Assembly: GCA_964023275.1 (NCBI GenBank)
Contig: OZ029925.1
Span: forward strand, 5,144,003-5,208,002
Reading direction: 5' to 3'
From: Norana najaformis
Taxonomy: Eukaryota > Annelida > Clitellata > Crassiclitellata > Hormogastridae
Length of the DNA stretch: 64,000 nucleotides
A model generated the notes under the pieces. That model was not told where the DNA came from. It saw only the letters and a list, made by a program, of their open reading frames with translations, and searched no databases. The translations under genes were made by a program, and so were the position numbers. Shown in pieces: positions 3,061-57,374 of this stretch. Positions within the stretch are counted from its first letter, which is position 1; each line of letters opens with the position of its first letter.

Positions 3061-3133
3061 GATGACAGAAAGATACACTGACAAGAACAGAGATACGGTA
3101 ACAATGCCGAGTAGAAGAAAGCTGGGCAACAAA

Positions 3134-20131: not shown

Positions 20132-22699
20132 ACGGACGAACGGAGATCAAGAGAGAGAAGGAAGGAGGGTGGGAGAAGGCGAGGAAGGGAGGGAGGGAGG
20201 GACGGACGGACGAACGGAGATCAAGAGAGAGAAAGAAGGAGGGTGGGAGGAGGCGAGGAAGGGAGGGAGGGACGGACGGACGGACGGAGATCAAGAGAGA
20301 GAAAGAAGGAGGGTGGGAGAAGGCGAGGAAGGGAGGGAGGGACGGACGGACGGACGGAGATCAAGAGAGAGAAAGAAGGAGGGTGGGAGGAGGCGAGGAA
20401 GGGAGGGAGGGACGGACGGACGGACGGAGATCAAGAGAGAGAAGGAAGGAGGGTGGGAGGAGGCGAGGAAGGGAGGGAGGGACGGACGGACGGACGGAGA
20501 TCAAGAGAGAGAAAGAAGGAGGGTGGGAGAAGGCGAGGAAGGGAGGGAGGGACGGACGGACGGACGGAGATCAAGAGAGAGAAGGAAGGAGGGTGGGAGG
20601 AGGCGAGGAAGGGAGGGAGGGACGGACGGACGGACGGAGATCAAGAGAGAGAAGGAAGGAGGGTGGGAGAAGGCGAGGAAGGGAGGGAGGGACGGACGGA
20701 CGGACGGAGATCAAGAGAGAGAAAGAAGGAGGGTGGGAGAAGGCGAGGAAGGGAGGGAGGGACGGACGGACGGACGGAGATCAAGAGAGAGAAAGAAGGA
20801 GGGTGGGAGGAGGCGAGGAAGGGAGGGAGGGACGGACGGACGAACGGAGATCAAGAGAGAGAAAGAAGGAGGGTGGGAGGAGGCGAGGAAGGGAGGGAGG
20901 GACGGACGGACGGACGGAGATCAAGAGAGAGAAGGAAGGAGGGTGGGAGGAGGCGAGGAAGGGAGGGAGGGACGGACGGACGGACGAACGGAGATCAAGA
21001 GAGAGAAAGAAGGAGGGTGGGAGGAGGCGAGGAAGGGAGGGAGGGACGGACGGACGGACGGAGATCAAGAGAGAGAAGGAAGGAGGGTGGGAGGAGGCGA
21101 GGAAGGGAGGGAGGGACGGACGGACGGACGAACGGAGATCAAGAGAGAGAAAGAAGGAGGGTGGGAGAAGGCGAGGAAGGGAGGGAGGGACGGACGGACG
21201 GACGGAGATCAAGAGAGAGAAGGAAGGAGGGTGGGAGGAGGCGAGGAAGGGAGGGAGGGACGGACGGACGAACGGAGATCAAGAGAGAGAAAGAAGGAGG
21301 GTGGGAGAAGGCGAGGAAGGGAGGGAGGGACGGACGGACGGACGGAGATCAAGAGAGAGAAGGAAGGAGGGTGGGAGGAGGCGAGGAAGGGAGGGAGGGA
21401 CGGACGGACGGACGGAGATCAAGAGAGAGAAAGAAGGAGGGTGGGAGAAGGCGAGGAAGGGAGGGAGGGACGGACGGACGGACGGAGATCAAGAGAGAGA
21501 AGGAAGGAGGGTGGGAGAAGGCGAGGAAGGGAGGGAGGGACGGACGGACGGACGGAGATCAAGAGAGAGAAGGAAGGAGGGCGGGAGAAGGCGAGGAAGG
21601 GAGGGAGGGAGGGACGGACGGACGGACGGAGATCAAGAGAGAGAAGGAAGGAGGGCGGGAGAAGGCGAGGAAAAGAGGGAGGGACGGACGGACGAACGGA
21701 GATCAAGAGAGAGAAAGAAGGAGGGTGGGAGGAGGCGAGGAAGGGAGGGAGGGAGGGACGGACGGACGGACGGAGATCAAGAGAGAGAAGGAAGGAGGGC
21801 GGGAGAAGGCGAGGAAGGGAGGGAGGGACGGACGGACGGACGAACGGAGATCAAGAGAGAGAAGGAAGGAGGGTGGGAGGAGGCGAGGAAGGGAGGGAGG
21901 GACGGACGGACGGACGAACGGAGATCAAGAGAGAGAAAGAAGGAGGGTGGGAGAAGGCGAGGAAGGGAGGGAGGGACGGACGGACGGACGAACGGAGATC
22001 AAGAGAGAGAAAGAAGGAGGGTGGGAGAAGGCGAGGAAGGGAGGGAGGGACGGACGGACGGACGAACGGAGATCAAGAGAGAGAAAGAAGGAGGGTGGGA
22101 GAAGGCGAGGAAGGGAGGGAGGGAGGGACGGACGGACGGACGGAGATCAAGAGAGAGAAAGAAGGAGGGTGGGAGAAGGCGAGGAAGGGAGGGAGGGACG
22201 GACGGACGGACGAACGGAGATCAAGAGAGAGAAGGAAGGAGGGTGGGAGGAGGCGAGGAAGGGAGGGAGGGACGGACGGACGGACGAACGGAGATCAAGA
22301 GAGAGAAAGAAGGAGGGTGGGAGAAGGCGAGGAAGGGAGGGAGGGACGGACGGACGGACGAACGGAGATCAAGAGAGAGAAAGAAGGAGGGTGGGAGAAG
22401 GCGAGGAAGGGAGGGAGGGACGGACGGACGGACGAACGGAGATCAAGAGAGAGAAAGAAGGAGGGTGGGAGAAGGCGAGGAAGGGAGGGAGGGACGGACG
22501 GACGGACGGACGGAGATCAAGAGAGAGAAAGAAGGAGGGTGGGAGAAGGCGAGGAAGGGAGGGAGGGACGGACGGACGGACGAACGGAGATCAAGAGAGA
22601 GAAAGAAGGAGGGTGGGAGAAGGCGAGGAAGGGAGGGAGGGACGGACGGACAGACGGAGATCAAGAGAGAGAAGGAAGGAGGGTGGGAGGAGGCGAGGA

Positions 22700-25600
22700 A
22701 GGGAGGGAGGGAGGGACGGACGGACGAACGGAGATCAAGAGAGAGAAAGAAGGAGGGTGGGAGGAGGCGAGGAAGGGAGGGAGGGACGGACGGACGGACG
22801 AACGGAGATCAAGAGAGAGAAAGAAGGAGGGTGGGAGAAGGCGAGGAAGGGAGGGAGGGACGGACGGACGGACGGAGATCAAGAGAGAGAAGGAAGGAGG
22901 GTGGGAGGAGGCGAGGAAGGGAGGGAGGGACGGACGGACGGACGAACGGAGATCAAGAGAGAGAAAGAAGGAGGGTGGGAGAAGGCGAGGAAGGGAGGGA
23001 CGGACGGACGGACGGACGGAGATCAAGAGAGAGAAAGAAGGAGGGCGGGAGAAGGCGAGGAAGGGAGGGAGGGACGGACGGACGGACGGAGATCAAGAGA
23101 GAGAAGGAAGGAGGGTGGGAGGAGGCGAGGAAGGGAGGGAGGGACGGACGGACGGACGAACGGAGATCAAGAGAGAGAAAGAAGGAGGGTGGGAGAAGGC
23201 GAGGAAGGGAGGGAGGGACGGACGGACGGACGGAGATCAAGAGAGAGAAGGAAGGAGGGTGGGAGGAGGCGAGGAAGGGAGGGAGGGACGGACGGACGGA
23301 CGAACGGAGATCAAGAGAGAGAAAGAAGGAGGGTGGGAGAAGGCGAGGAAGGGAGGGAGGGACGGACGGACGGACGGAGATCAAGAGAGAGAAAGAAGGA
23401 GGGTGGGAGAAGGCGAGGAAGGGAGGGAGGGAGGGACGGACGGACGGACGGAGATCAAGAGAGAGAAAGAAGGAGGGCGGGAGAAGGCGAGGAAGGGAGG
23501 GAGGGACGGACGGACGGACGGAGATCAAGAGAGAGAAAGAAGGAGGGTGGGAGAAGGCGAGGAAGGGAGGGAGGGAGGGACGGACGGACGGACGGAGAAC
23601 AAGAGAGAGAAAGAAGGAGGGCGGGAGAAGGCGAGGAAGGGAGGGAGGGACGGACGGACGGAGATCAAGAGAGAGAAAGAAGGAGGGCGGGAGAAGGCGA
23701 GGAAGGGAGGGAGGGAGGGACGGACGGACGAACGGAGATCAAGAGAGAGAAAGAAGGAGGGTGGGAGGAGGCGAGGAAGGGAGGGAGGGACGGACGGACG
23801 GACGGAGATCAAGAGAGAGAAAGAAGGAGGGCGGGAGGAGGCGAGGAAGGGAGGGAGGGAGGGACGGACGGACGGAGAACAAGAGAGAGAAAGAAGGAGG
23901 GTGGGAGAAGGCGAGGAAGGGAGGGAGGGACGGACGGACGGACGGAGATCAAGAGAGAGAAGGAAGGAGGGTGGGAGGAGGCGAGGAAGGGAGGGAGGGA
24001 GGGACGGACGGACGGACGGAGATCAAGAGAGAGAAAGAAGGAGGGCGGGAGAAGGCGAGGAAGGGAGGGAGGGAGGGACGGACGGACGGACGGAGATCAA
24101 GAGAGAGAAAGAAGGAGGGTGGGAGAAGGCGAGGAAGGGAGGGAGGGACGGACGGACGGACGGAGATCAAGAGAGAGAAAGAAGGAAGGAGGGTGGGAGA
24201 AGGCGAGGAAGGGAGGGAGGGAGGGACGGACGGACGGACGGAGATCAAGAGAGAGAAAGAAGGAGGGCGGGAGGAGGCGAGGAAGGGAGGGAGGGAGGGA
24301 CGGACGGACGGAGATCAAGAGAGAGAAAGAAGGAGGGTGGGAGGAGGCGAGGAAGGGAGGGAGGGACGGACGGACGGACGGAGATCAAGAGAGAGAAAGA
24401 AAGAGGGTGGGAGGAGGCGAGGAAGGGAGGGAGGGAGGGACGGACGGACGGACGGAGATCAAGAGAGAGAAAGAAGGAGGGTGGGAGGAGGCGAGGAAGG
24501 GAGGGAGGGACGGACGGACAGACGGACGGAGATCAAGAGAGAGAAAGAAGGAGGGTGGGAGGAGGCGAGGAAGGGAGGGAGGGAGGGACGGACGGACGGA
24601 CGGAGATCAAGAGAGAGAAAGAAGGAGGGTGGGAGAAGGCGAGGAAGGGAGGGAGGGAGGGACGGACGGACGGACGGAGATCAAGAGAGAGAAAGAAGGA
24701 GGGCGGGAGAAGGCGAGGAAGGGAGGGAGGGAGGGACGGACGGACGGACGGAGATCAAGAGAGAGAAGGAAGGAGGGCGGGAGAAGGCGAGTAAGGGAGG
24801 GACGGACGGACGGACGGAGATCAAGAGAGAGAAAGAAGGAGGGTGGGAGAAGGCGAGGAAGGGAGGGAGGGAGGGACGGACGGACGGACGGAGATCAAGA
24901 GAGAGAAAGAAGGAGGGTGGGAGAAGGCGAGGAAGGGAGGGAGGGAGGGACGGACGGACGGACGGAGATCAAGAGAGAGAAAGAAGGAGGGCGGGAGGAG
25001 GCGAGGAAGGGAGGGAGGGACGGACGGACGGACGAACGGAGATCAAGAGAGAGAAAGAAGGAGGGTGGGAGGAGGCGAGGAAGGGAGGGAGGGAGGGACG
25101 GACGGACGGACGGAGATCAAGAGAGAGAAAGAAGGAGGGTGGGAGAAGGCGAGTAAGGGAGGGAGGGACGGACGGACGGACGAACGGAGATCAAGAGAGA
25201 GAAAGAAGGAGGGTGGGAGGAGGCGAGGAAGGGAGGGAGGGACGGACGGACGGACGGAGATCAAGAGAGAGAAAGAAGGAGGGTGGGAGAAGGCGAGGAA
25301 GGGAGGGAGGGAGGGACGGACGGACGGACGGAGATCAAGAGAGAGAAAGAAGGAGGGCGGGAGAAGGCGAGGAAGGGAGGGAGGGAGGGACGGACGGACG
25401 GACGGAGATCAAGAGAGAGAAGGAAGGAGGGCGGGAGAAGGCGAGGAAGGGAGGGAGGGACGGACGGACGGACGGAGATCAAGAGAGAGAAAGAAGGAGG
25501 GTGGGAGAAGGCGAGGAAGGGAGGGAGGGAGGGACGGACGGACGGACGGAGATCAAGAGAGAGAAAGAAGGAGGGTGGGAGGAGGCGAGGAAGGGAGGGA

Positions 25601-28600
25601 GGGACGGACGGACGGACGGACGGAGATCAAGAGAGAGAAAGAAGGAGGGTGGGAGGAGGCGAGGAAGGGAGGGAGGGAGGGACGGACGGACGGACGGAGA
25701 TCAAGAGAGAGAAAGAAGGAGGGTGGGAGGAGGCGAGGAAGGGAGGGAGGGACGGACGGACGGACGGAGATCAAGAGAGAGAAAGAAGGAGGGTGGGAGA
25801 AGGCGAGGAAGGGAGGGAGGGACGGACGGACGGACGGAGATCAAGAGAGAGAAAGAAGGAGGGTGGGAGAAGGCGAGGAAGGGAGGGAGGGAGGGACGGA
25901 CGGACGAACGGAGATCAAGAGAGAGAAAGAAGGAGGGTGGGAGGAGGCGAGGAAGGGAGGGAGGGACGGACGGACGGACGAACGGAGATCAAGAGAGAGA
26001 AAGAAGGAGGGTGGGAGAAGGCGAGGAAGGGAGGGAGGGACGGACGGACGGACGGAGATCAAGAGAGAGAAGGAAGGAGGGTGGGAGGAGGCGAGGAAGG
26101 GAGGGAGGGACGGACGGACGGACGAACGGAGATCAAGAGAGAGAAAGAAGGAGGGTGGGAGAAGGCGAGGAAGGGAGGGACGGACGGACGGACGGACGGA
26201 GATCAAGAGAGAGAAAGAAGGAGGGCGGGAGAAGGCGAGGAAGGGAGGGAGGGACGGACGGACGGACGGAGATCAAGAGAGAGAAGGAAGGAGGGTGGGA
26301 GGAGGCGAGGAAGGGAGGGAGGGACGGACGGACGGACGAACGGAGATCAAGAGAGAGAAAGAAGGAGGGTGGGAGAAGGCGAGGAAGGGAGGGAGGGACG
26401 GACGGACGGACGGAGATCAAGAGAGAGAAAGAAGGAGGGTGGGAGGAGGCGAGGAAGGGAGGGAGGGACGGACGGACGGACGAACGGAGATCAAGAGAGA
26501 GAAAGAAGGAGGGTGGGAGAAGGCGAGGAAGGGAGGGAGGGACGGACGGACGGACGGAGATCAAGAGAGAGAAAGAAGGAGGGTGGGAGAAGGCGAGGAA
26601 GGGAGGGAGGGAGGGACGGACGGACGGACGGAGATCAAGAGAGAGAAAGAAGGAGGGCGGGAGAAGGCGAGGAAGGGAGGGAGGGACGGACGGACGGACG
26701 GAGATCAAGAGAGAGAAAGAAGGAGGGTGGGAGAAGGCGAGGAAGGGAGGGAGGGAGGGACGGACGGACGGACGGAGAACAAGAGAGAGAAAGAAGGAGG
26801 GCGGGAGAAGGCGAGGAAGGGAGGGAGGGACGGACGGACGGAGATCAAGAGAGAGAAAGAAGGAGGGCGGGAGAAGGCGAGGAAGGGAGGGAGGGAGGGA
26901 CGGACGGACGAACGGAGATCAAGAGAGAGAAAGAAGGAGGGTGGGAGGAGGCGAGGAAGGGAGGGAGGGACGGACGGACGGACGGAGATCAAGAGAGAGA
27001 AAGAAGGAGGGCGGGAGGAGGCGAGGAAGGGAGGGAGGGAGGGACGGACGGACGGAGAACAAGAGAGAGAAAGAAGGAGGGTGGGAGAAGGCGAGGAAGG
27101 GAGGGAGGGACGGACGGACGGACGGAGATCAAGAGAGAGAAGGAAGGAGGGTGGGAGGAGGCGAGGAAGGGAGGGAGGGAGGGACGGACGGACGGACGGA
27201 GATCAAGAGAGAGAAAGAAGGAGGGCGGGAGAAGGCGAGGAAGGGAGGGAGGGAGGGACGGACGGACGGACGGAGATCAAGAGAGAGAAAGAAGGAGGGT
27301 GGGAGAAGGCGAGGAAGGGAGGGAGGGACGGACGGACGGACGGAGATCAAGAGAGAGAAAGAAGGAAGGAGGGTGGGAGAAGGCGAGGAAGGGAGGGAGG
27401 GAGGGACGGACGGACGGACGGAGATCAAGAGAGAGAAAGAAGGAGGGCGGGAGGAGGCGAGGAAGGGAGGGAGGGACGGACGGACGGACGGAGATCAAGA
27501 GAGAGAAAGAAGGAGGGTGGGAGGAGGCGAGGAAGGGAGGGAGGGACGGACGGACGGACGGAGATCAAGAGAGAGAAAGAAGGAGGGTGGGAGGAGGCGA
27601 GGAAGGGAGGGAGGGAGGGACGGACGGACGGACGGAGATCAAGAGAGAGAAAGAAGGAGGGTGGGAGGAGGCGAGGAAGGGAGGGAGGGACGGACGGACA
27701 GACGGACGGAGATCAAGAGAGAGAAAGAAGGAGGGTGGGAGGAGGCGAGGAAGGGAGGGAGGGAGGGACGGACGGACGGACGGAGATCAAGAGAGAGAAA
27801 GAAGGAGGGTGGGAGAAGGCGAGGAAGGGAGGGAGGGAGGGACGGACGGACGGACGGAGATCAAGAGAGAGAAAGAAGGAGGGCGGGAGAAGGCGAGGAA
27901 GGGAGGGAGGGAGGGACGGACGGACGGACGGAGATCAAGAGAGAGAAGGAAGGAGGGCGGGAGAAGGCGAGTAAGGGAGGGACGGACGGACGGACGGAGA
28001 TCAAGAGAGAGAAAGAAGGAGGGTGGGAGAAGGCGAGGAAGGGAGGGAGGGAGGGACGGACGGACGGACGGAGATCAAGAGAGAGAAAGAAGGAGGGTGG
28101 GAGAAGGCGAGGAAGGGAGGGAGGGAGGGACGGACGGACGGACGGAGATCAAGAGAGAGAAAGAAGGAGGGCGGGAGGAGGCGAGGAAGGGAGGGAGGGA
28201 CGGACGGACGGACGAACGGAGATCAAGAGAGAGAAAGAAGGAGGGTGGGAGGAGGCGAGGAAGGGAGGGAGGGAGGGACGGACGGACGGACGGAGATCAA
28301 GAGAGAGAAAGAAGGAGGGTGGGAGAAGGCGAGTAAGGGAGGGAGGGACGGACGGACGGACGAACGGAGATCAAGAGAGAGAAAGAAGGAGGGTGGGAGG
28401 AGGCGAGGAAGGGAGGGAGGGACGGACGGACGGACGGAGATCAAGAGAGAGAAAGAAGGAGGGTGGGAGAAGGCGAGGAAGGGAGGGAGGGAGGGACGGA
28501 CGGACGGACGGAGATCAAGAGAGAGAAAGAAGGAGGGCGGGAGAAGGCGAGGAAGGGAGGGAGGGAGGGACGGACGGACGGACGGAGATCAAGAGAGAGA

Positions 28601-29050
28601 AGGAAGGAGGGCGGGAGAAGGCGAGGAAGGGAGGGAGGGACGGACGGACGGACGGAGATCAAGAGAGAGAAAGAAGGAGGGTGGGAGAAGGCGAGGAAGG
28701 GAGGGAGGGAGGGACGGACGGACGGACGGAGATCAAGAGAGAGAAAGAAGGAGGGTGGGAGGAGGCGAGGAAGGGAGGGAGGGACGGACGGACGGACGGA
28801 CGGAGATCAAGAGAGAGAAAGAAGGAGGGTGGGAGGAGGCGAGGAAGGGAGGGAGGGAGGGACGGACGGACGGACGGAGATCAAGAGAGAGAAAGAAGGA
28901 GGGTGGGAGGAGGCGAGGAAGGGAGGGAGGGACGGACGGACGGACGGAGATCAAGAGAGAGAAAGAAGGAGGGTGGGAGAAGGCGAGGAAGGGAGGGAGG
29001 GACGGACGGACGGACGGAGATCAAGAGAGAGAAAGAAGGAGGGTGGGAGA
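22700..29050 (+). repeat. 3,180-bp higher-order tandem duplication inside the satellite
   Basis: Two neighbouring blocks carry the same rare variants at a constant offset of 3,180 bp. GAGAAC replaces GAGATC at 23,595 and 26,775, and again at 23,875 and 27,055. The GAAGGAAGGAGGG insertion variant occurs at 24,181 and 27,361. GCGAGTAAGGG occurs near 24,786 and 27,966, and near 25,148 and 28,328. A few sites differ between copies (for example AAAGAGGG near 24,410 but AAGGAGGG near 27,590), so the duplication is not a pure assembly copy. Block edges are approximate. Confidence 0.85.
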
Positions 29051-29999
29051 AGGCGAGGAAGGGAGGGAGGGAGGGACGGACGGACGGACGGAGATCAAGA
29101 GAGAGAAAGAAGGAGGGTGGGAGAAGGCGAGGAAGGGAGGGAGGGAGGGACGGACGGACGGACGGAGATCAAGAGAGAGAAAGAAGGAGGGCGGGAGAAG
29201 GCGAGGAAGGGAGGGAGGGACGGACGGACGGACGGAGATCAAGAGAGAGAAAGAAGGAGGGTGGGAGAAGGCGAGGAAGGGAGGGAGGGAGGGACGGACG
29301 GACGGACGGAGATCAAGAGAGAGAAAGAAGGAGGGTGGGAGAAGGCGAGGAAGGGAGGGAGGGAGGGACGGACGGACGGACGGAGATCAAGAGAGAGAAA
29401 GAAGGAGGGCGGGAGGAGGCGAGGAAGGGAGGGAGGGACGGACGGACGGACGGAGATCAAGAGAGAGAAAGAAGGAGGGCGGGAGGAGGCGAGGAAGGGA
29501 GGGAGGGAGGGACGGACGGACGGAGATCAAGAGAGAGAAAGAAGGAGGGTGGGAGGAGGCGAGGAAGGGAGGGAGGGACGGACGGACGGACGGAGATCAA
29601 GAGAGAGAAAGAAGGAGGGTGGGAGGAGGCGAGGAAGGGAGGGAGGGAGGGACGGACGGACGGACGGAGATCAAGAGAGAGAAAGAAGGAGGGTGGGAGG
29701 AGGCGAGGAAGGGAGGGAGGGACGGACGGACAGACGGACGGAGATCAAGAGAGAGAAAGAAGGAGGGTGGGAGGAGGCGAGGAAGGGAGGGAGGGAGGGA
29801 CGGACGGACGGACGGAGATCAAGAGAGAGAAAGAAGGAGGGTGGGAGAAGGCGAGGAAGGGAGGGAGGGAGGGACGGACGGACGGACGGAGATCAAGAGA
29901 GAGAAAGAAGGAGGGCGGGAGAAGGCGAGGAAGGGAGGGAGGGAGGGACGGACGGACGGACGGAGATCAAGAGAGAGAAGGAAGGAGGGCGGGAGAAGG

Positions 30000-31790
30000 C
30001 GAGTAAGGGAGGGAGGGACGGACGGACGGACGGAGATCAAGAGAGAGAAAGAAGGAGGGTGGGAGAAGGCGAGGAAGGGAGGGAGGGACGGACGGACGGA
30101 CGGACGGAGATCAAGAGAGAGAAAGAAGGAGGGTGGGAGGAGGCGAGGAAGGGAGGGAGGGACGGACGGACGGACGGAGATCAAGAGAGAGAAGGAAGGA
30201 GGGTGGGAGGAGGCGAGGAAGGGAGGGAGGGACGGACGGACGGACGAACGGAGATCAAGAGAGAGAAAGGAGGGTGGGAGAAGGCGAGGAAGGGAGGGAG
30301 GGACGGACGGACGGACGGAGATCAAGAGAGAGAAGGAAGGAGGGTGGGAGGAGGCGAGGAAGGGAGGGAGGGACGGACGGACGGACGAACGGAGATCAAG
30401 AGAGAGAAAGAAGGAGGGTGGGAGAAGGCGAGGAAGGGAGGGAGGGACGGACGGACGGACGGAGATCAAGAGAGAGAAGGAAGGAGGGTGGGAGGAGGCG
30501 AGGAAGGGAGGGAGGGACGGACGGACGGACGAACGGAGATCAAGAGAGAGAAAGAAGGAGGGTGGGAGAAGGCGAGGAAGGGAGGGAGGGACGGACGGAC
30601 GGACGGAGATCAAGAGAGAGAAGGAAGGAGGGTGGGAGGAGGCGAGGAAGGGAGGGAGGGACGGACGGACGGACGAACGGAGATCAAGAGAGAGAAAGAA
30701 GGAGGGTGGGAGAAGGCGAGGAAGGGAGGGAGGGACGGACGGACGGACGGAGATCAAGAGAGAGAAGGAAGGAGGGTGGGAGGAGGCGAGGAAGGGAGGG
30801 AGGGACGGACGGACGGACGGAGATCAAGAGAGAGAAAGAAGGAGGGTGGGAGAAGGCGAGGAAGGGAGGGAGGGACGGACGGACGGACGGAGATCAAGAG
30901 AGAGAAGGAAGGAGGGCGGGAGAAGGCGAGTAAGGGAGGGAGGGACGGACGGACGGACGGAGATCAAGAGAGAGAAAGAAGGAGGGTGGGAGAAGGCGAG
31001 GAAGGGAGGGAGGGACGGACGGACGGACGGACGGAGATCAAGAGAGAGAAAGAAGGAGGGTGGGAGGAGGCGAGGAAGGGAGGGAGGGACGGACGGACGG
31101 ACGGAGATCAAGAGAGAGAAGGAAGGAGGGTGGGAGGAGGCGAGGAAGGGAGGGAGGGACGGACGGACGGACGAACGGAGATCAAGAGAGAGAAAGGAGG
31201 GTGGGAGAAGGCGAGGAAGGGAGGGAGGGACGGACGGACGGACGGAGATCAAGAGAGAGAAGGAAGGAGGGTGGGAGGAGGCGAGGAAGGGAGGGAGGGA
31301 CGGACGGACGGACGAACGGAGATCAAGAGAGAGAAAGAAGGAGGGTGGGAGAAGGCGAGGAAGGGAGGGAGGGACGGACGGACGGACGGAGATCAAGAGA
31401 GAGAAGGAAGGAGGGTGGGAGGAGGCGAGGAAGGGAGGGAGGGACGGACGGACGGACGAACGGAGATCAAGAGAGAGAAAGAAGGAGGGTGGGAGAAGGC
31501 GAGGAAGGGAGGGAGGGACGGACGGACGGACGGAGATCAAGAGAGAGAAGGAAGGAGGGTGGGAGGAGGCGAGGAAGGGAGGGAGGGACGGACGGACGGA
31601 CGAACGGAGATCAAGAGAGAGAAAGAAGGAGGGTGGGAGAAGGCGAGGAAGGGAGGGAGGGACGGACGGACGGACGGAGATCAAGAGAGAGAAGGAAGGA
31701 GGGTGGGAGGAGGCGAGGAAGGGAGGGAGGGACGGACGGACGGACGGAGATCAAGAGAGAGAAAGAAGGAGGGTGGGAGAAGGCGAGGAA
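30000..31790 (+). repeat. 927-bp higher-order tandem duplication inside the satellite
   Basis: GCGAGTAAGGG near 29,999 recurs near 30,926, and a 4-bp deletion variant (GAGAAAGGAGGGTGGG) near 30,262 recurs near 31,189. Both pairs are 927 bp apart. Within each copy, units alternate regularly between GAAGGAAGG/GAGGAGG and GAAAGAAGG/GAGAAGG types, with GGACGAACGG in every second unit, so a dimer of about 144 bp is the local repeating module. Confidence 0.8.
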
Positions 31791-32840: not shown

Positions 32841-35814
32841 TCAAGAGAGAGAAAGAAGGAGGGTGGGAGAAGGCGAGGAAGGGAGGGAGGGAGGGACGGA
32901 CGGACGGACGGAGATCAAGAGAGAGAAAGAAGGAGGGCGGGAGAAGGCGAGGAAGGGAGGGAGGGAGGGACGGACGGACGGACGGAGATCAAGAGAGAGA
33001 AGGAAGGAGGGCGGGAGAAGGCGAGGAAGGGAGGGAGGGACGGACGGACGGACGGAGATCAAGAGAGAGAAAGAAGGAGGGTGGGAGAAGGCGAGGAAGG
33101 GAAGGAGGGAGGGACGGACGGACGGACGGAGATCAAGAGAGAGAAAGAAGGAGGGTGGGAGGAGGCGAGGAAGGGAGGGAGGGACGGACGGACGGACGGA
33201 CGGAGATCAAGAGAGAGAAGGAAGGAGGGCGGGAGAAGGCGAGGAAGGGAGGGAGGGACGGACGGACGGACGGAGATCAAGAGAGAGAAAGAAGGAGGGT
33301 GGGAGAAGGCGAGGAAGGGAGGGAGGGAGGGACGGACGGACGGACGGAGATCAAGAGAGAGAAAGAAGGAGGGTGGGAGGAGGCGAGGAAGGGAGGGAGG
33401 GACGGACGGACGGACGGACGGAGATCAAGAGAGAGAAAGAAGGAGGGTGGGAGGAGGCGAGGAAGGGAGGGAGGGAGGGACGGACGGACGGACGGAGATC
33501 AAGAGAGAGAAAGAAGGAGGGTGGGAGGAGGCGAGGAAGGGAGGGAGGGACGGACGGACGGACGGAGATCAAGAGAGAGAAAGAAGGAGGGTGGGAGAAG
33601 GCGAGGAAGGGAGGGAGGGACGGACGGACGGACGGAGATCAAGAGAGAGAAAGAAGGAGGGTGGGAGAAGGCGAGGAAGGGAGGGAGGGAGGGACGGACG
33701 GACGGACGGAGATCAAGAGAGAGAAAGAAGGAGGGTGGGAGAAGGCGAGGAAGGGAGGGAGGGAGGGACGGACGGACGGACGGAGATCAAGAGAGAGAAA
33801 GAAGGAGGGCGGGAGGAGGCGAGGAAGGGAGGGAGGGACGGACGGACGGACGGAGATCAAGAGAGAGAAAGAAGGAGGGTGGGAGAAGGCGAGGAAGGGA
33901 GGGAGGGACGGACGGACGGACGGAGATCAAGAGAGAGAAGGAAGGAGGGTGGGAGGAGGCGAGGAAGGGAGGGAGGGACGGACGGACGGACGGACGGAGA
34001 TCAAGAGAGAGAAAGAAGGAGGGCGGGAGAAGGCGAGGAAGGGAGGGAGGGAGGGACGGACGGACGGACGGAGATCAAGAGAGAGAAAGAAGGAGGGTGG
34101 GAGAAGGCGAGGAAGGGAGGGAGGGACGGACGGACGGACGGAGATCAAGAGAGAGAAAGAAGGAAGGAGGGTGGGAGAAGGCGAGGAAGGGAGGGAGGGA
34201 GGGACGGACGGACGGACGGAGATCAAGAGAGAGAAAGAAGGAGGGCGGGAGGAGGCGAGGAAGGGAGGGAGGGAGGGACGGACGGACGGAGATCAAGAGA
34301 GAGAAAGAAGGAGGGTGGGAGAAGGCGAGGAAGGGAGGGAGGGAGGGACGGACGGACGGACGGAGATCAAGAGAGAGAAAGAAGGAGGGCGGGAGAAGGC
34401 GAGGAAGGGAGGGAGGGAGGGACGGACGGACGGACGGAGATCAAGAGAGAGAAGGAAGGAGGGCGGGAGAAGGCGAGTAAGGGAGGGAGGGACGGACGGA
34501 CGGACGGAGATCAAGAGAGAGAAAGAAGGAGGGTGGGAGAAGGCGAGGAAGGGAGGGAGGGACGGACGGACGGACGGAGATCAAGAGAGAGAAAGAAGGA
34601 GGGTGGGAGGAGGCGAGGAAGGGAGGGAGGGACGGACGGACGGACGGAGATCAAGAGAGAGAAAGAAGGAGGGTGGGAGAAGGCGAGGAAGGGAGGGAGG
34701 GACGGACGGACGGACGAACGGAGATCAAGAGAGAGAAAGAAGGAGGGTGGGAGGAGGCGAGGAAGGGAGGGAGGGACGGACGGACGGACGGAGATCAAGA
34801 GAGAGAAAGAAGGAGGGTGGGAGAAGGCGAGGAAGGGAGGGAGGGAGGGACGGACGGACGGACGGAGATCAAGAGAGAGAAAGAAGGAGGGCGGGAGAAG
34901 GCGAGGAAGGGAGGGAGGGAGGGACGGACGGACGGACGGAGATCAAGAGAGAGAAGGAAGGAGGGCGGGAGAAGGCGAGGAAGGGAGGGAGGGACGGACG
35001 GACGGACGGAGATCAAGAGAGAGAAAGAAGGAGGGTGGGAGAAGGCGAGGAAGGGAAGGAGGGAGGGACGGACGGACGGACGGAGATCAAGAGAGAGAAA
35101 GAAGGAGGGTGGGAGGAGGCGAGGAAGGGAGGGAGGGACGGACGGACGGACGGACGGAGATCAAGAGAGAGAAGGAAGGAGGGCGGGAGAAGGCGAGGAA
35201 GGGAGGGAGGGACGGACGGACGGACGGAGATCAAGAGAGAGAAAGAAGGAGGGTGGGAGAAGGCGAGGAAGGGAGGGAGGGAGGGACGGACGGACGGACG
35301 GAGATCAAGAGAGAGAAAGAAGGAGGGTGGGAGGAGGCGAGGAAGGGAGGGAGGGACGGACGGACGGACGGACGGAGATCAAGAGAGAGAAAGAAGGAGG
35401 GTGGGAGGAGGCGAGGAAGGGAGGGAGGGAGGGACGGACGGACGGACGGAGATCAAGAGAGAGAAAGAAGGAGGGTGGGAGGAGGCGAGGAAGGGAGGGA
35501 GGGACGGACGGACGGACGGAGATCAAGAGAGAGAAAGAAGGAGGGTGGGAGAAGGCGAGGAAGGGAGGGAGGGACGGACGGACGGACGGAGATCAAGAGA
35601 GAGAAAGAAGGAGGGTGGGAGAAGGCGAGGAAGGGAGGGAGGGAGGGACGGACGGACGGACGGAGATCAAGAGAGAGAAAGAAGGAGGGTGGGAGAAGGC
35701 GAGGAAGGGAGGGAGGGAGGGACGGACGGACGGACGGAGATCAAGAGAGAGAAAGAAGGAGGGCGGGAGAAGGCGAGGAAGGGAGGGAGGGAGGGACTGA
35801 CGGACGGAGATCAA
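32841..35814 (+). repeat. 1,954-bp shifted block duplication inside the satellite
   Basis: The run of unit variants from about 32,841 to 33,860 recurs from about 34,795 to 35,814 with a constant shift of 1,954 bp. It includes the uncommon GGGAAGGAGGGAGGG form near 33,100 and 35,054. The inference rests on matching variant order, not on an alignment. Confidence 0.7.
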
Positions 35815-35899
35815 GAGAGAGAAAGAAGGAGGGTGGGAGAAGGCGAGGAAGGGAGGGAGGGAGGGACGGACGGACGGACGGAGATCAAGAGAGAGAAAG

Positions 35900-38800
35900 A
35901 AGGAGGGCGGGGAGGAGGCGAGGAAGGGAGGGAGGGACGGACGGACGGACGGAGATCAAGAGAGAGAAAGAAGGAGGGGTGGGGAGAAGGCGAGGAAGGG
36001 AGGGAGGGACGGACGGACGGACGGAGATCAAGAGAGAGAAGGAAGGAGGGTGGGAGGAGGCGAGGAAGGAGGGGAGGGGAGGGACGGACGGACGGACGGA
36101 GATCAAGAGAGAGAAAGAAGGAGGGCGGGAGAAGGCGAGGAAGGGAGGGAGGGAGGGACGGACGGACGGACGGAGATCAAGAGAGAGAAAGAAGGAGGGT
36201 GGGAGAAGGCGAGGAAGGGGAGGGAGGGACGGACGGACGGACGGAGATCAAGAGAGAGAAAGAAGGAAGGAGGGTGGGAGAAGGCGAGGAAGGGAGGGAG
36301 GGAGGGACGGACGGACGGACGGAGATCAAGAGAGAGAAAGAAGGAGGGCGGGAGGAGGCGAGGAAGGGAGGGAGGGAGGGACGGGACGGACGGAGATCAA
36401 GAGAGAGAAAGAAGGAGGGTGGGAGGAGGCGAGGAAGGGAGGGAGGGACGGACGGACGGACGGAGATCAAGAGAGAGAAAGAAAGAGGGTGGGAGGAGGC
36501 GAGGAAGGGAGGGAGGGAGGGACGGACGGACGGACGGAGATCAAGAGAGAGAAAGAAGGAGGGTGGGAGGAGGCGAGGAAGGGAGGGAGGGACGGACGGA
36601 CAGACGGACGGAGATCAAGAGAGAGAAAGAAGGAGGGTGGGAGGAGGCGAGGAAGGGAGGGAGGGAGGGACGGACGGACGGACGGAGATCAAGAGAGAGA
36701 AAGAAGGAGGGTGGGAGAAGGCGAGGAAGGGAGGGAGGGAGGGACGGACGGACGGACGGAGATCAAGAGAGAGAAAGAAGGAGGGCGGGAGAAGGCGAGG
36801 AAGGGAGGGAGGGAGGGACGGACGGACGGACGGAGATCAAGAGAGAGAAGGAAGGAGGGCGGGAGAAGGCGAGTAAGGGAGGGACGGACGGACGGACGGA
36901 GATCAAGAGAGAGAAAGAAGGAGGGTGGGAGAAGGCGAGGAAGGGAGGGAGGGAGGGACGGACGGACGGACGGAGATCAAGAGAGAGAAAGAAGGAGGGT
37001 GGGAGAAGGCGAGGAAGGGAGGGAGGGAGGGACGGACGGACGGACGGAGATCAAGAGAGAGAAAGAAGGAGGGCGGGAGGAGGCGAGGAAGGGAGGGAGG
37101 GACGGACGGACGGACGAACGGAGATCAAGAGAGAGAAAGAAGGAGGGTGGGAGGAGGCGAGGAAGGGAGGGAGGGAGGGACGGACGGACGGACGGAGATC
37201 AAGAGAGAGAAAGAAGGAGGGTGGGAGAAGGCGAGTAAGGGAGGGAGGGACGGACGGACGGACGAACGGAGATCAAGAGAGAGAAAGAAGGAGGGTGGGA
37301 GGAGGCGAGGAAGGGAGGGAGGGACGGACGGACGGACGGAGATCAAGAGAGAGAAAGAAGGAGGGTGGGAGAAGGCGAGGAAGGGAGGGAGGGAGGGACG
37401 GACGGACGGACGGAGATCAAGAGAGAGAAAGAAGGAGGGCGGGAGAAGGCGAGGAAGGGAGGGAGGGAGGGACGGACGGACGGACGGAGATCAAGAGAGA
37501 GAAGGAAGGAGGGCGGGAGAAGGCGAGGAAGGGAGGGAGGGACGGACGGGACGGACGGAGATCAAGAGAGAGAAAGAAGGAGGGTGGGAGAAGGCGAGGA
37601 AGGGAGGGAGGGAGGGACGGACGGACGGACGGAGATCAAGAGAGAGAAAGAAGGAGGGTGGGAGGAGGCGAGGAAGGGAGGGAGGGACGGACGGACGGAC
37701 GGACGGAGATCAAGAGAGAGAAAGAAGGAGGGTGGGAGGAGGCGAGGAAGGGAGGGAGGGAGGGACGGACGGACGGACGGAGATCAAGAGAGAGAAAGAA
37801 GGAGGGGTGGGGAGGAGGCGAGGAAGGGAGGGAGGGACGGACGGACGGACGGAGATCAAGAGAGAGAAAGAAGGAGGGTGGGAGAAGGCGAGGAAGGGAG
37901 GGAGGGACGGACGGACGGACGGAGATCAAGAGAGAGAAAGAAGGAGGGTGGGAGAAGGCGAGGAAGGGAGGGGAGGGAGGGACGGACGGACGAACGGAGA
38001 TCAAGAGAGAGAAAGAAGGAGGGTGGGAGGGAGGCGAGGAAGGGAGGGAGGGACGGACGGACGGACGAACGGAGATCAAGAGAGAGAAAGAAGGAGGGTG
38101 GGAGAAGGCGAGGAAGGGAGGGAGGGACGGACGGACGGACGGAGATCAAGAGAGAGAAGGAAGGAGGGTGGGAGGAGGCGAGGAAGGGAGGGAGGGACGG
38201 ACGGACGGACGAACGGAGATCAAGAGAGAGAAAGAAGGAGGGTGGGAGAAGGCGAGGAAGGGAGGGACGGACGGACGGACGGACGGAGATCAAGAGAGAG
38301 AAAGAAGGAGGGCGGGAGAAGGCGAGGAAGGGAGGGAGGGACGGACGGACGGACGGAGATCAAGAGAGAGAAGGAAGGAGGGTGGGAGGAGGCGAGGAAG
38401 GGAGGGAGGGACGGACGGACGGACGAACGGAGATCAAGAGAGAGAAAGAAGGAGGGTGGGAGAAGGCGAGGAAGGGAGGGAGGGGACGGACGGACGGACG
38501 GAGATCAAGAGAGAGAAAGAAGGAGGGTGGGAGGAGGCGAGGAAGGAGGGAGGGACGGACGGACGGACGAACGGAGATCAAGAGAGAGAAAGAAGGAGGG
38601 TGGGAGAAGGCGAGGAAGGGAGGGAGGGACGGACGGACGGACGGAGATCAAGAGAGAGAAAGAAGGAGGGTGGGAGAAGGCGAGGAAGGGAGGGAGGGAG
38701 GGACGGACGGACGGACGGAGATCAAGAGAGAGAAAGAAGGAGGGCGGGAGAAGGCGAGGAAGGGAGGGAGGGACGGACGGACGGACGGAGATCAAGAGAG

Positions 38801-40870
38801 AGAAAGAAGGAGGGTGGGAGAAGGCGAGGAAGGGAGGGAGGGAGGGACGGACGGACGGACGGAGAACAAGAGAGAGAAAGAAGGAGGGCGGGAGAAGGCG
38901 AGGAAGGGAGGGAGGGACGGACGGACGGAGATCAAGAGAGAGAAAGAAGGAGGGCGGGAGAAGGCGAGGAAGGGAGGGAGGGAGGGACGGACGGACGAAC
39001 GGAGATCAAGAGAGAGAAAGAAGGAGGGTGGGAGGAGGCGAGGAAGGGAGGGAGGGACGGGACGGACGGACGGAGATCAAGAGAGAGAAAGAAGGAGGGC
39101 GGGAGGAGGCGAGGAAGGGAGGGAGGGAGGGACGGACGGACGGAGAACAAGAGAGAGAAAGAAGGAGGGTGGGAGAAGGCGAGGAAGGGAGGGAGGGACG
39201 GACGGACGGACGGAGATCAAGAGAGAGAAGGAAGGAGGGTGGGAGGAGGCGAGGAAGGGAGGGAGGGAGGGACGGACGGACGGACGGAGATCAAGAGAGA
39301 GAAAGAAGGAGGGCGGGAGAAGGCGAGGAAGGGAGGGAGGGGAGGGACGGACGGACGGACGGAGATCAAGAGAGAGAAAGAAGGAGGGTGGGAGAAGGCG
39401 AGGAAGGGAGGGGAGGGGACGGACGGACGGACGGAGATCAAGAGAGAGAAAGAAGGAAGGAGGGGTGGGAGAAGGCGAGGAAGGGAGGGAGGGAGGGACG
39501 GACGGACGGACGGAGATCAAGAGAGAGAAAGAAGGAGGGCGGGAGGAGGCGAGGAAGGGAGGGAGGGACGGACGGACGGACGGAGATCAAGAGAGAGAAA
39601 GAAGGAGGGGTGGGAGGAGGCGAGGAAGGGAGGGGAGGGACGGACGGGACGGACGGAGATCAAGAGAGAGAAAGAAGGAGGGTGGGAGGAGGCGAGGAAG
39701 GGAGGGAGGGAGGGACGGACGGACGGACGGAGATCAAGAGAGAGAAAGAAGGAGGGTGGGAGGAGGCGAGGAAGGGAGGGAGGGACGGACGGACAGACGG
39801 ACGGAGATCAAGAGAGAGAAAGAAGGAGGGTGGGAGGAGGCGAGGAAGGGAGGGAGGGAGGGACGGACGGACGGACGGAGATCAAGAGAGAGAAAGAAGG
39901 AGGGTGGGAGAAGGCGAGGAAGGGAGGGAGGGAGGGGACGGGACGGACGGACGGAGATCAAGAGAGAGAAAGAAGGAGGGCGGGAGAAGGCGAGGAAGGG
40001 AGGGAGGGAGGGACGGACGGACGGACGGAGATCAAGAGAGAGAAGGAAGGAGGGCGGGAGAAGGCGAGTAAGGGGAGGGACGGACGGACGGACGGAGATC
40101 AAGAGAGAGAAAGAAGGAGGGTGGGAGAAGGCGAGGAAGGGAGGGAGGGAGGGACGGACGGACGGACGGAGATCAAGAGAGAGAAAGAAGGAGGGTGGGA
40201 GAAGGCGAGGAAGGGAGGGAGGGAGGGACGGACGGACGGACGGAGATCAAGAGAGAGAAAGAAGGAGGGCGGGAGGAGGCGAGGAAGGGAGGGAGGGACG
40301 GACGGACGGACGAACGGAGATCAAGAGAGAGAAAGAAGGAGGGTGGGAGGAGGCGAGGAAGGGAGGGGAGGGAGGGACGGACGGACGGACGGAGATCAAG
40401 AGAGAGAAAGAAGGAGGGTGGGAGAAGGCGAGTAAGGGAGGGAGGGACGGACGGACGGACGAACGGAGATCAAGAGAGAGAAAGAAGGAGGGTGGGAGGA
40501 GGCGAGGAAGGGAGGGAGGGACGGACGGACGGACGGAGATCAAGAGAGAGAAAGAAGGAGGGTGGGAGAAGGCGAGGAAGGGAGGGAGGGAGGGACGGAC
40601 GGACGGACGGAGATCAAGAGAGAGAAAGAAGGAGGGCGGGAGAAGGCGAGGAAGGGAGGGAGGGAGGGACGGACGGACGGACGGAGATCAAGAGAGAGAA
40701 GGAAGGAGGGCGGGAGAAGGCGAGGAAGGGAGGGAGGGACGGACGGACGGACGGAGATCAAGAGAGAGAAAGAAGGAGGGTGGGAGAAGGCGAGGAAGGG
40801 AGGGAGGGAGGGACGGACGGACGGACGGAGATCAAGAGAGAGAAAGAAGGAGGGTGGGGAGGAGGCGAGG
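35900..40870 (+). repeat. Satellite sub-region with many single-G indels
   Basis: Here the otherwise strict 70/74/78 bp unit lengths are broken by extra or missing G residues: GGGCGGGGAGG near 35,905, GGAGGGGTGGGG near 35,970 and 37,803, ACGGGACGG near 36,383, 37,548, 39,058 and 39,645, GGGGACGG near 38,483, and GGGGAGGG near 40,364. A second cluster lies at about 43,684-44,045. Such indels are nearly absent from 20.1-35.9 kb. This looks like lower consensus accuracy at G runs, though real slippage is possible. Confidence 0.6.
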
Positions 40871-43800
40871 AAGGGAGGGAGGGACGGACGGACGGACGGA
40901 CGGAGATCAAGAGAGAGAAAGAAGGAGGGTGGGAGGAGGCGAGGAAGGGAGGGAGGGAGGGACGGACGGACGGACGGAGATCAAGAGAGAGAAAGAAGGA
41001 GGGTGGGAGGAGGCGAGGAAGGGAGGGAGGGACGGACGGACGGACGGAGATCAAGAGAGAGAAAGAAGGAGGGTGGGAGAAGGCGAGGAAGGGAGGGAGG
41101 GACGGACGGACGGACGGAGATCAAGAGAGAGAAAGAAGGAGGGTGGGAGAAGGCGAGGAAGGGAGGGAGGGAGGGACGGACGGACGGACGGAGATCAAGA
41201 GAGAGAAAGAAGGAGGGTGGGAGAAGGCGAGGAAGGGAGGGAGGGAGGGACGGACGGACGGACGGAGATCAAGAGAGAGAAAGAAGGAGGGCGGGAGAAG
41301 GCGAGGAAGGGAGGGAGGGAGGGACTGACGGACGGAGATCAAGAGAGAGAAAGAAGGAGGGTGGGAGAAGGCGAGGAAGGGAGGGAGGGAGGGACGGACG
41401 GACGGACGGAGATCAAGAGAGAGAAAGAAGGAGGGCGGGAGGAGGCGAGGAAGGGAGGGAGGGACGGACGGACGGACGGAGATCAAGAGAGAGAAAGAAG
41501 GAGGGTGGGAGAAGGCGAGGAAGGGAGGGAGGGACGGACGGACGGACGGAGATCAAGAGAGAGAAGGAAGGAGGGTGGGAGGAGGCGAGGAAGGGAGGGA
41601 GGGACGGACGGACGGACGGACGGAGATCAAGAGAGAGAAAGAAGGAGGGCGGGAGAAGGCGAGGAAGGGAGGGAGGGAGGGACGGACGGACGGACGGAGA
41701 TCAAGAGAGAGAAAGAAGGAGGGTGGGAGAAGGCGAGGAAGGGAGGGAGGGACGGACGGACGGACGGAGATCAAGAGAGAGAAAGAAGGAAGGAGGGTGG
41801 GAGAAGGCGAGGAAGGGAGGGAGGGAGGGACGGACGGACGGACGGAGATCAAGAGAGAGAAAGAAGGAGGGCGGGAGGAGGCGAGGAAGGGAGGGAGGGA
41901 GGGACGGACGGACGGAGATCAAGAGAGAGAAAGAAGGAGGGTGGGAGAAGGCGAGGAAGGGAGGGAGGGAGGGACGGACGGACGGACGGAGATCAAGAGA
42001 GAGAAAGAAGGAGGGCGGGAGAAGGCGAGGAAGGGAGGGAGGGAGGGACGGACGGACGGACGGAGATCAAGAGAGAGAAGGAAGGAGGGCGGGAGAAGGC
42101 GAGTAAGGGAGGGAGGGACGGACGGACGGACGGAGATCAAGAGAGAGAAAGAAGGAGGGTGGGAGAAGGCGAGGAAGGGAGGGAGGGACGGACGGACGGA
42201 CGGAGATCAAGAGAGAGAAAGAAGGAGGGTGGGAGGAGGCGAGGAAGGGAGGGAGGGACGGACGGACGGACGGAGATCAAGAGAGAGAAGGAAGGAGGGT
42301 GGGAGGAGGCGAGGAAGGGAGGGAGGGACGGACGGACGGACGAACGGAGATCAAGAGAGAGAAAGAAGGAGGGTGGGAGAAGGCGAGGAAGGGAGGGAGG
42401 GACGGACGGACGGACGGAGATCAAGAGAGAGAAGGAAGGAGGGTGGGAGGAGGCGAGGAAGGGAGGGAGGGACGGACGGACGGACGAACGGAGATCAAGA
42501 GAGAGAAAGAAGGAGGGTGGGAGAAGGCGAGGAAGGGAGGGAGGGACGGACGGACGGACGGAGATCAAGAGAGAGAAGGAAGGAGGGTGGGAGGAGGCGA
42601 GGAAGGGAGGGAGGGACGGACGGACGGACGAACGGAGATCAAGAGAGAGAAAGAAGGAGGGTGGGAGAAGGCGAGGAAGGGAGGGAGGGACGGACGGACG
42701 GACGGAGATCAAGAGAGAGAAGGAAGGAGGGTGGGAGGAGGCGAGGAAGGGAGGGAGGGACGGACGGACGGACGAACGGAGATCAAGAGAGAGAAAGAAG
42801 GAGGGTGGGAGAAGGCGAGGAAGGGAGGGAGGGACGGACGGACGGACGGAGATCAAGAGAGAGAAGGAAGGAGGGTGGGAGGAGGCGAGGAAGGGAGGGA
42901 GGGACGGACGGACGGACGGAGATCAAGAGAGAGAAAGAAGGAGGGTGGGAGAAGGCGAGGAAGGGAGGGAGGGACGGACGGACGGACGGAGATCAAGAGA
43001 GAGAAAGAAGGAGGGTGGGAGAAGGCGAGGAAGGGAGGGAGGGACGGACGGACGGACGGACGGAGATCAAGAGAGAGAAAGAAGGAGGGCGGGAGAAGGC
43101 GAGGAAGGGAGGGAGGGACGGACGGACGGACGGAGATCACGAGAGAGAAAGAAGGAGGGTGGGAGAAGGCGAGGAAGGGAGGGAGGGAGGGACGGACGGA
43201 CGGACGGAGATCAAGAGAGAGAAAGAAGGAGGGTGGGAGAAGGCGAGGAAGGGAGGGAGGGAGGGACGGACGGACGGAGATCAAGAGAGAGAAAGAAGGA
43301 GGGCGGGAGGAGGCGAGGAAGGGAGGGAGGGACGGACGGACGGACGGAGATCAAGAGAGAGAAAGAAGGAGGGTGGGAGAAGGCGAGGAAGGGAGGGAGG
43401 GACGGACGGACGGACGGAGATCAAGAGAGAGAAGGAAGGAGGGTGGGAGGAGGCGAGGAAGGGAGGGAGGGACGGACGGACGGACGGACGGAGATCAAGA
43501 GAGAGAAAGAAGGAGGGCGGGAGAAGGCGAGGAAGGGAGGGAGGGAGGGACGGACGGACGGACGGAGATCAAGAGAGAGAAAGAAGGAGGGTGGGAGAAG
43601 GCGAGGAAGGGAGGGAGGGACGGACGGACGGACGGAGATCAAGAGAGAGAAAGAAGGAAGGAGGGTGGGAGAAGGCGAGGAAGGGGAGGGAGGGAGGGAC
43701 GGACGAACGGAGATCAAGAGAGAGAAAGAAGGAGGGTGGGAGGAGGCGAGGAAGGGAGGGAGGGAGGGACGGACGGACGAACGGAGATCAAGAGAGAGAA

Positions 43801-46800
43801 AGAAGGAGGGTGGGAGGAGGCGAGGAAGGGGAGGGAGGGACGGACGGACGGACGGAGATCAAGAGAGAGAAAGAAGGAGGGTGGGGAGAAGGCGAGGAAG
43901 GGAGGGAGGGAGGGACGGACGGACGGACGGAGATCAAGAGAGAGAAAGAAGGAGGGGCGGGAGAAGGCGAGGAAGGGGAGGGAGGGAGGGACGGGACGGA
44001 CGGACGGAGATCAAGAGAGAGAAGGAAGGAGGGCGGGAGGAAGGCGAGGAAGGGAGGGAGGGACGGACGGACGGACGGAGATCAAGAGAGAGAAAGAAGG
44101 AGGGTGGGAGAAGGCGAGGAAGGGAGGGAGGGAGGGACGGACGGACGGACGGAGATCAAGAGAGAGAAAGAAGGAGGGTGGGAGGAGGCGAGGAAGGGAG
44201 GGAGGGACGGACGGACGGACGGACGGAGATCAAGAGAGAGAAGGAAGGAGGGCGGGAGAAGGCGAGGAAGGGAGGGAGGGACGGACGGACGGACGGAGAT
44301 CAAGAGAGAGAAAGAAGGAGGGTGGGAGAAGGCGAGGAAGGGAGGGAGGGAGGGACGGACGGACGGACGGAGATCAAGAGAGAGAAAGAAGGAGGGTGGG
44401 AGGAGGCGAGGAAGGGAGGGAGGGACGGACGGACGGACGGACGGAGATCAAGAGAGAGAAAGAAGGAGGGTGGGAGGAGGCGAGGAAGGGAGGGAGGGAG
44501 GGACGGACGGACGGACGGAGATCAAGAGAGAGAAAGAAGGAGGGTGGGAGGAGGCGAGGAAGGGAGGGAGGGACGGACGGACGGACGGAGATCAAGAGAG
44601 AGAAAGAAGGAGGGTGGGAGAAGGCGAGGAAGGGAGGGAGGGACGGACGGACGGACGGAGATCAAGAGAGAGAAAGAAGGAGGGTGGGAGAAGGCGAGGA
44701 AGGGAGGGAGGGAGGGACGGACGGACGGACGGAGATCAAGAGAGAGAAAGAAGGAGGGTGGGAGAAGGCGAGGAAGGGAGGGAGGGAGGGACGGACGGAC
44801 GGACGGAGATCAAGAGAGAGAAAGAAGGAGGGCGGGAGAAGGCGAGGAAGGGAGGGAGGGACGGACGGACGGACGGAGATCAAGAGAGAGAAAGAAGGAG
44901 GGTGGGAGAAGGCGAGGAAGGGAGGGAGGGAGGGACGGACGGACGGACGGAGATCAAGAGAGAGAAAGAAGGAGGGTGGGAGAAGGCGAGGAAGGGAGGG
45001 AGGGAGGGACGGACGGACGGACGGAGATCAAGAGAGAGAAAGAAGGAGGGCGGGAGGAGGCGAGGAAGGGAGGGAGGGACGGACGGACGGACGGAGATCA
45101 AGAGAGAGAAAGAAGGAGGGTGGGAGAAGGCGAGGAAGGGAGGGAGGGACGGACGGACGGACGGAGATCAAGAGAGAGAAGGAAGGAGGGTGGGAGGAGG
45201 CGAGGAAGGGAGGGAGGGACGGACGGACGGACGGACGGAGATCAAGAGAGAGAAAGAAGGAGGGCGGGAGAAGGCGAGGAAGGGAGGGAGGGAGGGACGG
45301 ACGGACGGACGGAGATCAAGAGAGAGAAAGAAGGAGGGTGGGAGAAGGCGAGGAAGGGAGGGAGGGACGGACGGACGGACGGAGATCAAGAGAGAGAAAG
45401 AAGGAAGGAGGGTGGGAGAAGGCGAGGAAGGGAGGGAGGGAGGGACGGACGGACGGACGGAGATCAAGAGAGAGAAAGAAGGAGGGCGGGAGGAGGCGAG
45501 GAAGGGAGGGAGGGAGGGACGGACGGACGAACGGAGATCAAGAGAGAGAAAGAAGGAGGGTGGGAGGAGGCGAGGAAGGGAGGGAGGGACGGACGGACGG
45601 ACGGACGGAGATCAAGAGAGAGAAAGAAGGAGGGTGGGAGAAGGCGAGGAAGGGAGGGAGGGAGGGACGGACGGACGAACGGAGATCAAGAGAGAGAAAG
45701 AAGGAGGTTGGGAGGAGGCGAGGAAGGGAGGGAGGGACGGACGGACGGACGGAGATCAAGAGAGAGAAAGAAGGAGGGTGGGAGAAGGCGAGGAAGGGAG
45801 GGAGGGAGGGACGGACGGACGGACGGAGATCAAGAGAGAGAAAGAAGGAGGGCGGGAGAAGGCGAGGAAGGGAGGGAGGGAGGGACGGACGGACGGACGG
45901 AGATCAAGAGAGAGAAGGAAGGAGGGCGGGAGAAGGCGAGGAAGGGAGGGAGGGACGGACGGACGGACGGAGATCAAGAGAGAGAAAGAAGGAGGGTGGG
46001 AGAAGGCGAGGAAGGGAGGGAGGGACGGACGGACGGACGGACGGAGATCAAGAGAGAGAAAGAAGGAGGGTGGGAGGAGGCGAGGAAGGGAGGGAGGGAC
46101 GGACGGACGGACGGACGGAGATCAAGAGAGAGAAAGAAGGAGGGTGGGAGGAGGCGAGGAAGGGAGGGAGGGAGGGACGGACGGACGGACGGAGATCAAG
46201 AGAGAGAAAGAAGGAGGGTGGGAGGAGGCGAGGAAGGGAGGGAGGGACGGACGGACGGACGAACGGAGATCAAGAGAGAGAAGGAAGGAGGGTGGGAGGA
46301 GGCGAGGAAGGGAGGGAGGGACGGACGGACGGACGGAGATCAAGAGAGAGAAAGAAGGAGGGTGGGAGGAGGCGAGGAAGGGAGGGAGGGACGGACGGAC
46401 GGACGGAGATCAAGAGAGAGAAAGAAGGAGGGTGGGAGAAGGCGAGGAAGGGAGGGAGGGACGGACGGACGGACGGAGATCAAGAGAGAGAAAGAAGGAG
46501 GGTGGGAGAAGGCGAGGAAGGGAGGGAGGGAGGGACGGACGGACGGACGGAGATCAAGAGAGAGAAAGAAGGAGGGTGGGAGGAGGCGAGGAAGGGAGGG
46601 AGGGACGGACGGACAGACGGACGGAGATCAAGAGAGAGAAAGAAGGAGGGTGGGAGGAGGCGAGGAAGGGAGGGAGGGACGGACGGACGGACGGAGATCA
46701 AGAGAGAGAAAGAAGGAGGGTGGGAGGAGGCGAGGAAGGGAGGGAGGGACGGACGGACGGACGGAGATCAAGAGAGAGAAAGAAGGAGGGTGGGAGAAGG

Positions 46801-47205
46801 CGAGGAAGGGAGGGAGGGACGGACGGACGGACGGAGATCAAGAGAGAGAAAGAAGGAGGGTGGGAGAAGGCGAGGAAGGGAGGGAGGGACGGACGGACGG
46901 ACGGACGGAGATCAAGAGAGAGAAAGAAGGAGGGTGGGAGGAGGCGAGGAAGGGAGGGAGGGACGGACGGACGGACGAACGGAGATCAAGAGAGAGAAAG
47001 AAGGAGGGTGGGAGGAGGCGAGGAAGGGAGGGAGGGACGGACGGACGGACGAACGGAGATCAAGAGAGAGAAAGAAGGAGGGTGGGAGGAGGCGAGGAAG
47101 GGAGGGAGGGACGGACGGACGGACGAACGGAGATCAAGAGAGAGAAAGAAGGAGGGTGGGAGGAGGCGAGGAAGGGAGGGAGGGAGGGACGGACGGACGG
47201 ACGGA

Positions 47206-57370: not shown

Positions 57371-57374
57371 ACAC

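Follow-up and report, generated by a model that had tools for sequence, protein, structure and literature searches.

The array and its surroundings

Within the 64-kb window (the whole stretch of DNA that was analysed), a tandem array occupies positions 20132-47205 and consists of 374 head-to-tail units in a single orientation, mostly 70 or 74 bp long. Tandem Repeats Finder (TRF) places it at 20131-47206 with a period of 74, 374.2 copies and 93% matches. Our unit count starts from 373 GATC/GAAC anchors, to which the last unit was added and among which a 144-bp double unit was split. The 372 anchor-to-anchor intervals mainly measure 74 bp (192) or 70 bp (139), followed by 78 bp (7) and 66 bp (6); the other 28 include the double unit. 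Taken together the units range from 66 to 79 bp, and at 374 copies chance is no issue.

The + strand of the array consists for 88.6% of A+G, in agreement with an earlier note on this DNA, made from the letters alone, that had described a 27-kb tandem array with about 89% purines on this strand. The GC content per 2 kb is 0.62-0.63 inside the array and 0.43 in the flanks, and the array is CpG-rich (2018 CpG, observed/expected 1.56; flanks 0.89). The ladder that was predicted for a GATC digest holds by site positions (368 GATC sites in the array), supplemented with a few 140-bp bands: there are six such GATC intervals, each where one unit reads GAAC. The main features are the following.

20132..47205, + strand: whole array, 374 units, mostly 70/74 bp; the purine-rich strand is +
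20145..22732, + strand: left end, units 0-35, with 8/36 singletons; outside the large block duplications
22733..29092, + strand: two tandem copies of a 44-unit (3180-bp) block; 4 substitutions, no indels
35883..40904, + strand: one-base G-insertion zone, 20/69 odd-length units, GGGG x20; probable consensus error zone
36101..41266, + strand: copy of units 54-124 (24021-29166), 12.1 kb off; 70/71 units identical after removal of extra Gs
43637..44079, + strand: second, short one-base G-insertion zone, GGGG x5 in 443 bp
47498..47822, no strand assigned: dispersed repeat in the right flank, ~325 bp, 94% identical to 14018-14343
48607..49303, - strand: neighbouring minisatellite with a 93-bp unit, pyrimidine-rich on +, its strand bias opposite to that of the array

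Tandem repeats cover 32% and 18% of the two window flanks, and 24% and 30% of the adjoining outer 5 kb. In a 200-kb genome sample (20 stretches of 10 kb) the coverage is 5.2%, with individual stretches at 0-16% and no array longer than 1.2 kb; since this sample was taken from contigs C1-C4 (4 of the 17), and thus from outside the array's own contig C13, these values are an indication only. Relative to this sample the array is of great length. The suggestion that its neighbourhood is unique DNA is only partly correct, given the abundance of other tandem repeats in both flanks. The left flank (18900-20131) has a single full-length match, which is itself; the matches elsewhere, with 40 of 347 candidates scored, are short and 72-92% identical.

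Several other repeats were observed in the window. A separate 22-bp minisatellite lies at 3129-3915 (36 copies, 97%), and a 42-bp unit occurs in two short arrays (55895-56033 and 57372-57478) about 1.3 kb apart, which are 96% identical over 141 bp. At 11467-11834, 368 bp match their own reverse complement at 83%, resembling a foldback element.

Ten flanking frames among the 183 listed open reading frames were searched against Pfam, a thin test for intron-bearing genes, and none scored above the curated cut-off: eight were without any match and two gave weak matches below it, to Zip (E 0.0068, 16.1 against 35.1 bits) and RNHCP (E 0.049). A tRNA search with the bacterial code found none, and Rfam gave no match at the gathering score.

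Unit anatomy and structural potential

As read from the unit list, each unit consists of a 42-bp core, GATCAAGAGAGAGAARGAAGGAGGGYGGGAGRAGGCGAGGAA, followed by (GGGA)n and then (GGAC)n, with two to five repeats in the first tract and three to five in the second. Units with three GGGA and four GAC are the most numerous (123 units of 70 bp). A length of 74 bp is found both with four GGGA and four GAC (105 units, plus 10 with a GAAC variant) and with three GGGA and five GAC (76 units, 47 with the GAAC variant and 29 without), so that this length can be reached by two routes. From unit to unit the number of GGGA repeats changes separately from that of GAC/AAC repeats, by which statistical independence is not implied. 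The 4-bp steps in unit length that had been noted earlier are real, and the ladder is mostly the work of two tetranucleotide counters located in two short tracts inside each unit. The 78-bp units differ from this pattern: in six of the seven the additional 4 bp sits in the core.

C interrupts the purines every 4 bp in the GGAC tract and the longest unbroken purine run measures 26 bp; the array is therefore not a long homopurine tract. This also weakens the idea of triplex formation; the mirror repeats seen in the two commonest units measure 11-17 bp. With respect to G-quadruplexes, 145 consensus motifs were counted, whereas single-base shuffles average 190 and dinucleotide shuffles 117 (20 shuffles of each kind). 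The count being below the first mean and above the second, the potential is high but mostly due to composition. The motif GGGAGGGAGGG (or a version with longer G runs) is present in 363 of the 374 units; three G-runs of at least three with single A loops, resembling the arrangement that makes human CEB1 unstable in yeast, are seen in 363/374 units, and four such runs in 141. Fifty single-base shuffles contain on average 24 of these triple motifs (363 in the array), which is a weak control since all units share one ancestor. As a structural property, a predicted G-quadruplex potential of the + strand, largely a matter of composition, is better supported than a triplex.

Block duplications and assembled length

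The array had been described as uniform. It is built of nested blocks of units instead; of 373 units, the noisy ones counted in, 72 are distinct, and one-base insertions of G mark two of its zones. Stretches of as many as 19 units in a row reappear exactly, at several spacings. The copies of the 44-unit tandem block differ by 4 substitutions and 0 indels in 3180 bp, and units 36-78 recur as 80-122 with 40 of the 43 identical. At a larger distance of 12.1 kb (167 units), units 54-124 recur as 221-291, in which 70 of the 71 are identical if extra Gs are discounted. Shorter runs recur at 13, 27, 105 and 154 units. Singletons are concentrated at the left end (8/36 in units 0-35), with 0/89 in units 36-124 and 1/93 in units 125-217.

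The extra Gs are confined to two places. In the 5.0 kb of 35883-40904, 20 of the 69 units have an odd length and GGGG occurs 20 times; the second zone (43637-44079, 0.44 kb) contains it five times, and the remaining 21,609 bp of the array not once. Outside both zones only three units are of odd length, one of which is the double unit. When aligned to the clean units 51-122, units 218-289 show 25 one-base insertions of G, the deletion of a single G, and 4 mismatches; two of these mismatches seem to be part of a local realignment around the G deletion. As real mutation would hardly be limited to one stretch and one base, the zones look like consensus errors. The larger zone nearly coincides with the 71-unit copy, which points to a poor consensus or a false duplication: the copy may be a true one with too little coverage, or else it is false. 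This suggests that part of the assembled array length is not trustworthy, and the total length is uncertain.

It might thus be argued that the array is real but inflated in length, the block at 24.0-29.2 kb having been falsely duplicated at 36.1-41.3 kb by the assembler. We consider this a serious possibility, though somewhat less likely than not; it qualifies the reading of the array as a minisatellite that is set out below and is compatible with it. Apart from the near coincidence of 35883-40904 with 36101-41266, it is favoured by the nature of the one-base indels that separate units 51-122 from units 218-289 (25 of the 26 are G insertions in G runs). Furthermore, passages of PMC9186530 document a loss of HiFi coverage in GA-rich sequence of the human genome, though the platform used here may differ. 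Against it, the second zone (43637-44079) is not part of the block, so that low coverage may be all that the errors indicate; polishing a true copy would be hard too, and two real-looking substitutions distinguish the copies. In any case the array carries a warning for GA-rich repeats: consensus errors may coincide with apparent duplications, and lengths read from an assembly need the support of reads.

Genomic distribution, origin and related systems

A search for the core pattern with at most two mismatches yields 359 matches in the complete assembly (608 Mb, 17 contigs) and likewise 359 in the window alone, all forward and none reverse. The places listed for the genome search are the first ones only, all of them in the array, so that the argument rests on the equality of the totals: outside this locus the 608-Mb assembly contains no match at this threshold, and we are dealing with a single-locus minisatellite rather than a dispersed satellite. 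In minisatellites (VNTRs), units of about 10-100 bp follow one another head to tail at a single locus. The array agrees with this in its 374 units of 66-79 bp and its 359 core matches out of 359, and also in its interspersed unit variants. Many loci or megabase arrays, as would be expected of a satellite family, were not found in the assembly, which holds one 27-kb locus.

A looser DNA similarity search returned at least 45 other places in the genome at 65-78% identity (39 scored out of 312 candidates). It missed the window's own array and is therefore no test of uniqueness, for which the pattern counts serve. As relatives of the unit these places were rejected: the four analysed with TRF (out of eight) are all (GGGA)n or GGGA/GGAC microsatellites lacking the unit. 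They do indicate that the material of the unit's tracts is common in this genome. Beyond the genome, neither viral nor prokaryote contigs contain the exact core (0 in both), which is as expected. A text search with three pieces of the unit gave no match in the papers covered, which is weak evidence because papers seldom print such sequence, and the unit is not named in the titles and abstract openings of the listed papers on fitting topics.

Some observations of separate interest were made elsewhere in the genome. A 30-bp minisatellite at L003:2449-3624 has at least 39 copies and reaches the end of that locus. A TTAGGG array starts at C1:34956745, in the interior of a 63.9-Mb contig, and represents interstitial telomere-like repeats or a misjoin. 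Short COX1-like pieces with stops at C15:412358 and C15:570464 are possibly nuclear mitochondrial copies.

Summarizing, we read the array as a non-coding, single-locus compound of microsatellite and minisatellite that has grown by slippage and block duplication, with a probability of roughly 80%. The unit anatomy, the single locus and the block copies belong to what this assembly displays, whereas slippage and unequal exchange are inferred as the processes. Replication slippage may add repeats to the GGGA and GGAC tracts or remove them, which would produce most of the 4-bp steps in length. Growth of the array itself would proceed by unequal exchange or gene conversion, through duplication of runs of units (such as 13 and 44 in tandem, or 71 copied 167 units off). 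G-quadruplexes on the + strand might promote instability, as they do for human CEB1. This step is suggested by passages of PMC5491262, according to which the greater part of the CEB1 instability in yeast is sustained by three G-triplets whose loops are one base long. The same passages report that short loops containing a pyrimidine are more destabilizing and that replacing an A loop of CEB1 by T raised instability; the loops here are A, which counts somewhat against the step. All of this is read from one assembly. The array is probably without selected function, and represents an extreme case of a common type of tandem repeat in a large genome. As a natural case it is clear, combining tetranucleotide length steps with block duplication at two scales, and it would be well suited to experiments on G-quadruplex-driven expansion.

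A more specific and rather doubtful version holds that a satellite has been caught at birth. A compound tetranucleotide microsatellite would have gained the 42-bp core, after which G-quadruplexes with one-base loops on one strand would have caused replication forks to stall and entire blocks (of 44 and 71 units) to jump, so that 27 kb was reached at a single locus ahead of any spread.

The equal core totals and the sole full-length match of the left flank to itself support the local amplification that the earlier note had listed among its options. The pericentromeric or chromosome-wide family that it had also listed is unlikely: the length of the array and its repeat-rich surroundings (18-32% across the window flanks and the adjacent 5 kb on either side) would fit a genome-wide or pericentromeric satellite, but the core is found nowhere else in the assembly at two mismatches or fewer. 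Collapsed or unassembled copies could escape such a count. The array lies at 5.16 of the 27.5 Mb of its contig. Slightly less probable still is a structural element under selection (triplex or G-quadruplex, for instance a replication barrier), to which the mirror repeats of the two commonest units and the G-quadruplex motifs could be attributed, since motif frequency largely tracks base composition. A coding repeat can practically be dismissed: the stop-to-stop open frames on the + strand (up to 3347 codons) are long because T is scarce, which makes stops rare alike in every frame (14 in the three + frames together), while units of 70 and 74 bp shift the frame at each unit and steps of 4 bp are no multiple of three.

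Among known systems, human HSat2 and HSat3 occupy many loci and span megabases. The array resembles these purine-rich satellites in being GA-rich and long, and differs from them as one 27-kb locus. With the (GGGA)n and GGGA/GGAC microsatellites of the same genome (L001-L004) it shares the tetranucleotide tracts, but their TRF periods are 4-20 bp, unlike its 70-bp unit. An internal map of unit variants along one array is also known for MVR-typed hypervariable minisatellites (PMC1929145) and for haploid human MSY1 (PMC2599865), a comparison that here covers the variant map of one assembly. Unlike CEB1 and CEB25, which are called subtelomeric in the abstract of PMC3486850, the array is interior on its contig. 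What it has in common with human CEB1 is a G-rich tandem unit carrying three G-triplets with one-base loops (passages of PMC5491262); the likeness to CEB1 and CEB25 thus lies in the G-rich unit and the motif arrangement, with A as the loop base in our array.
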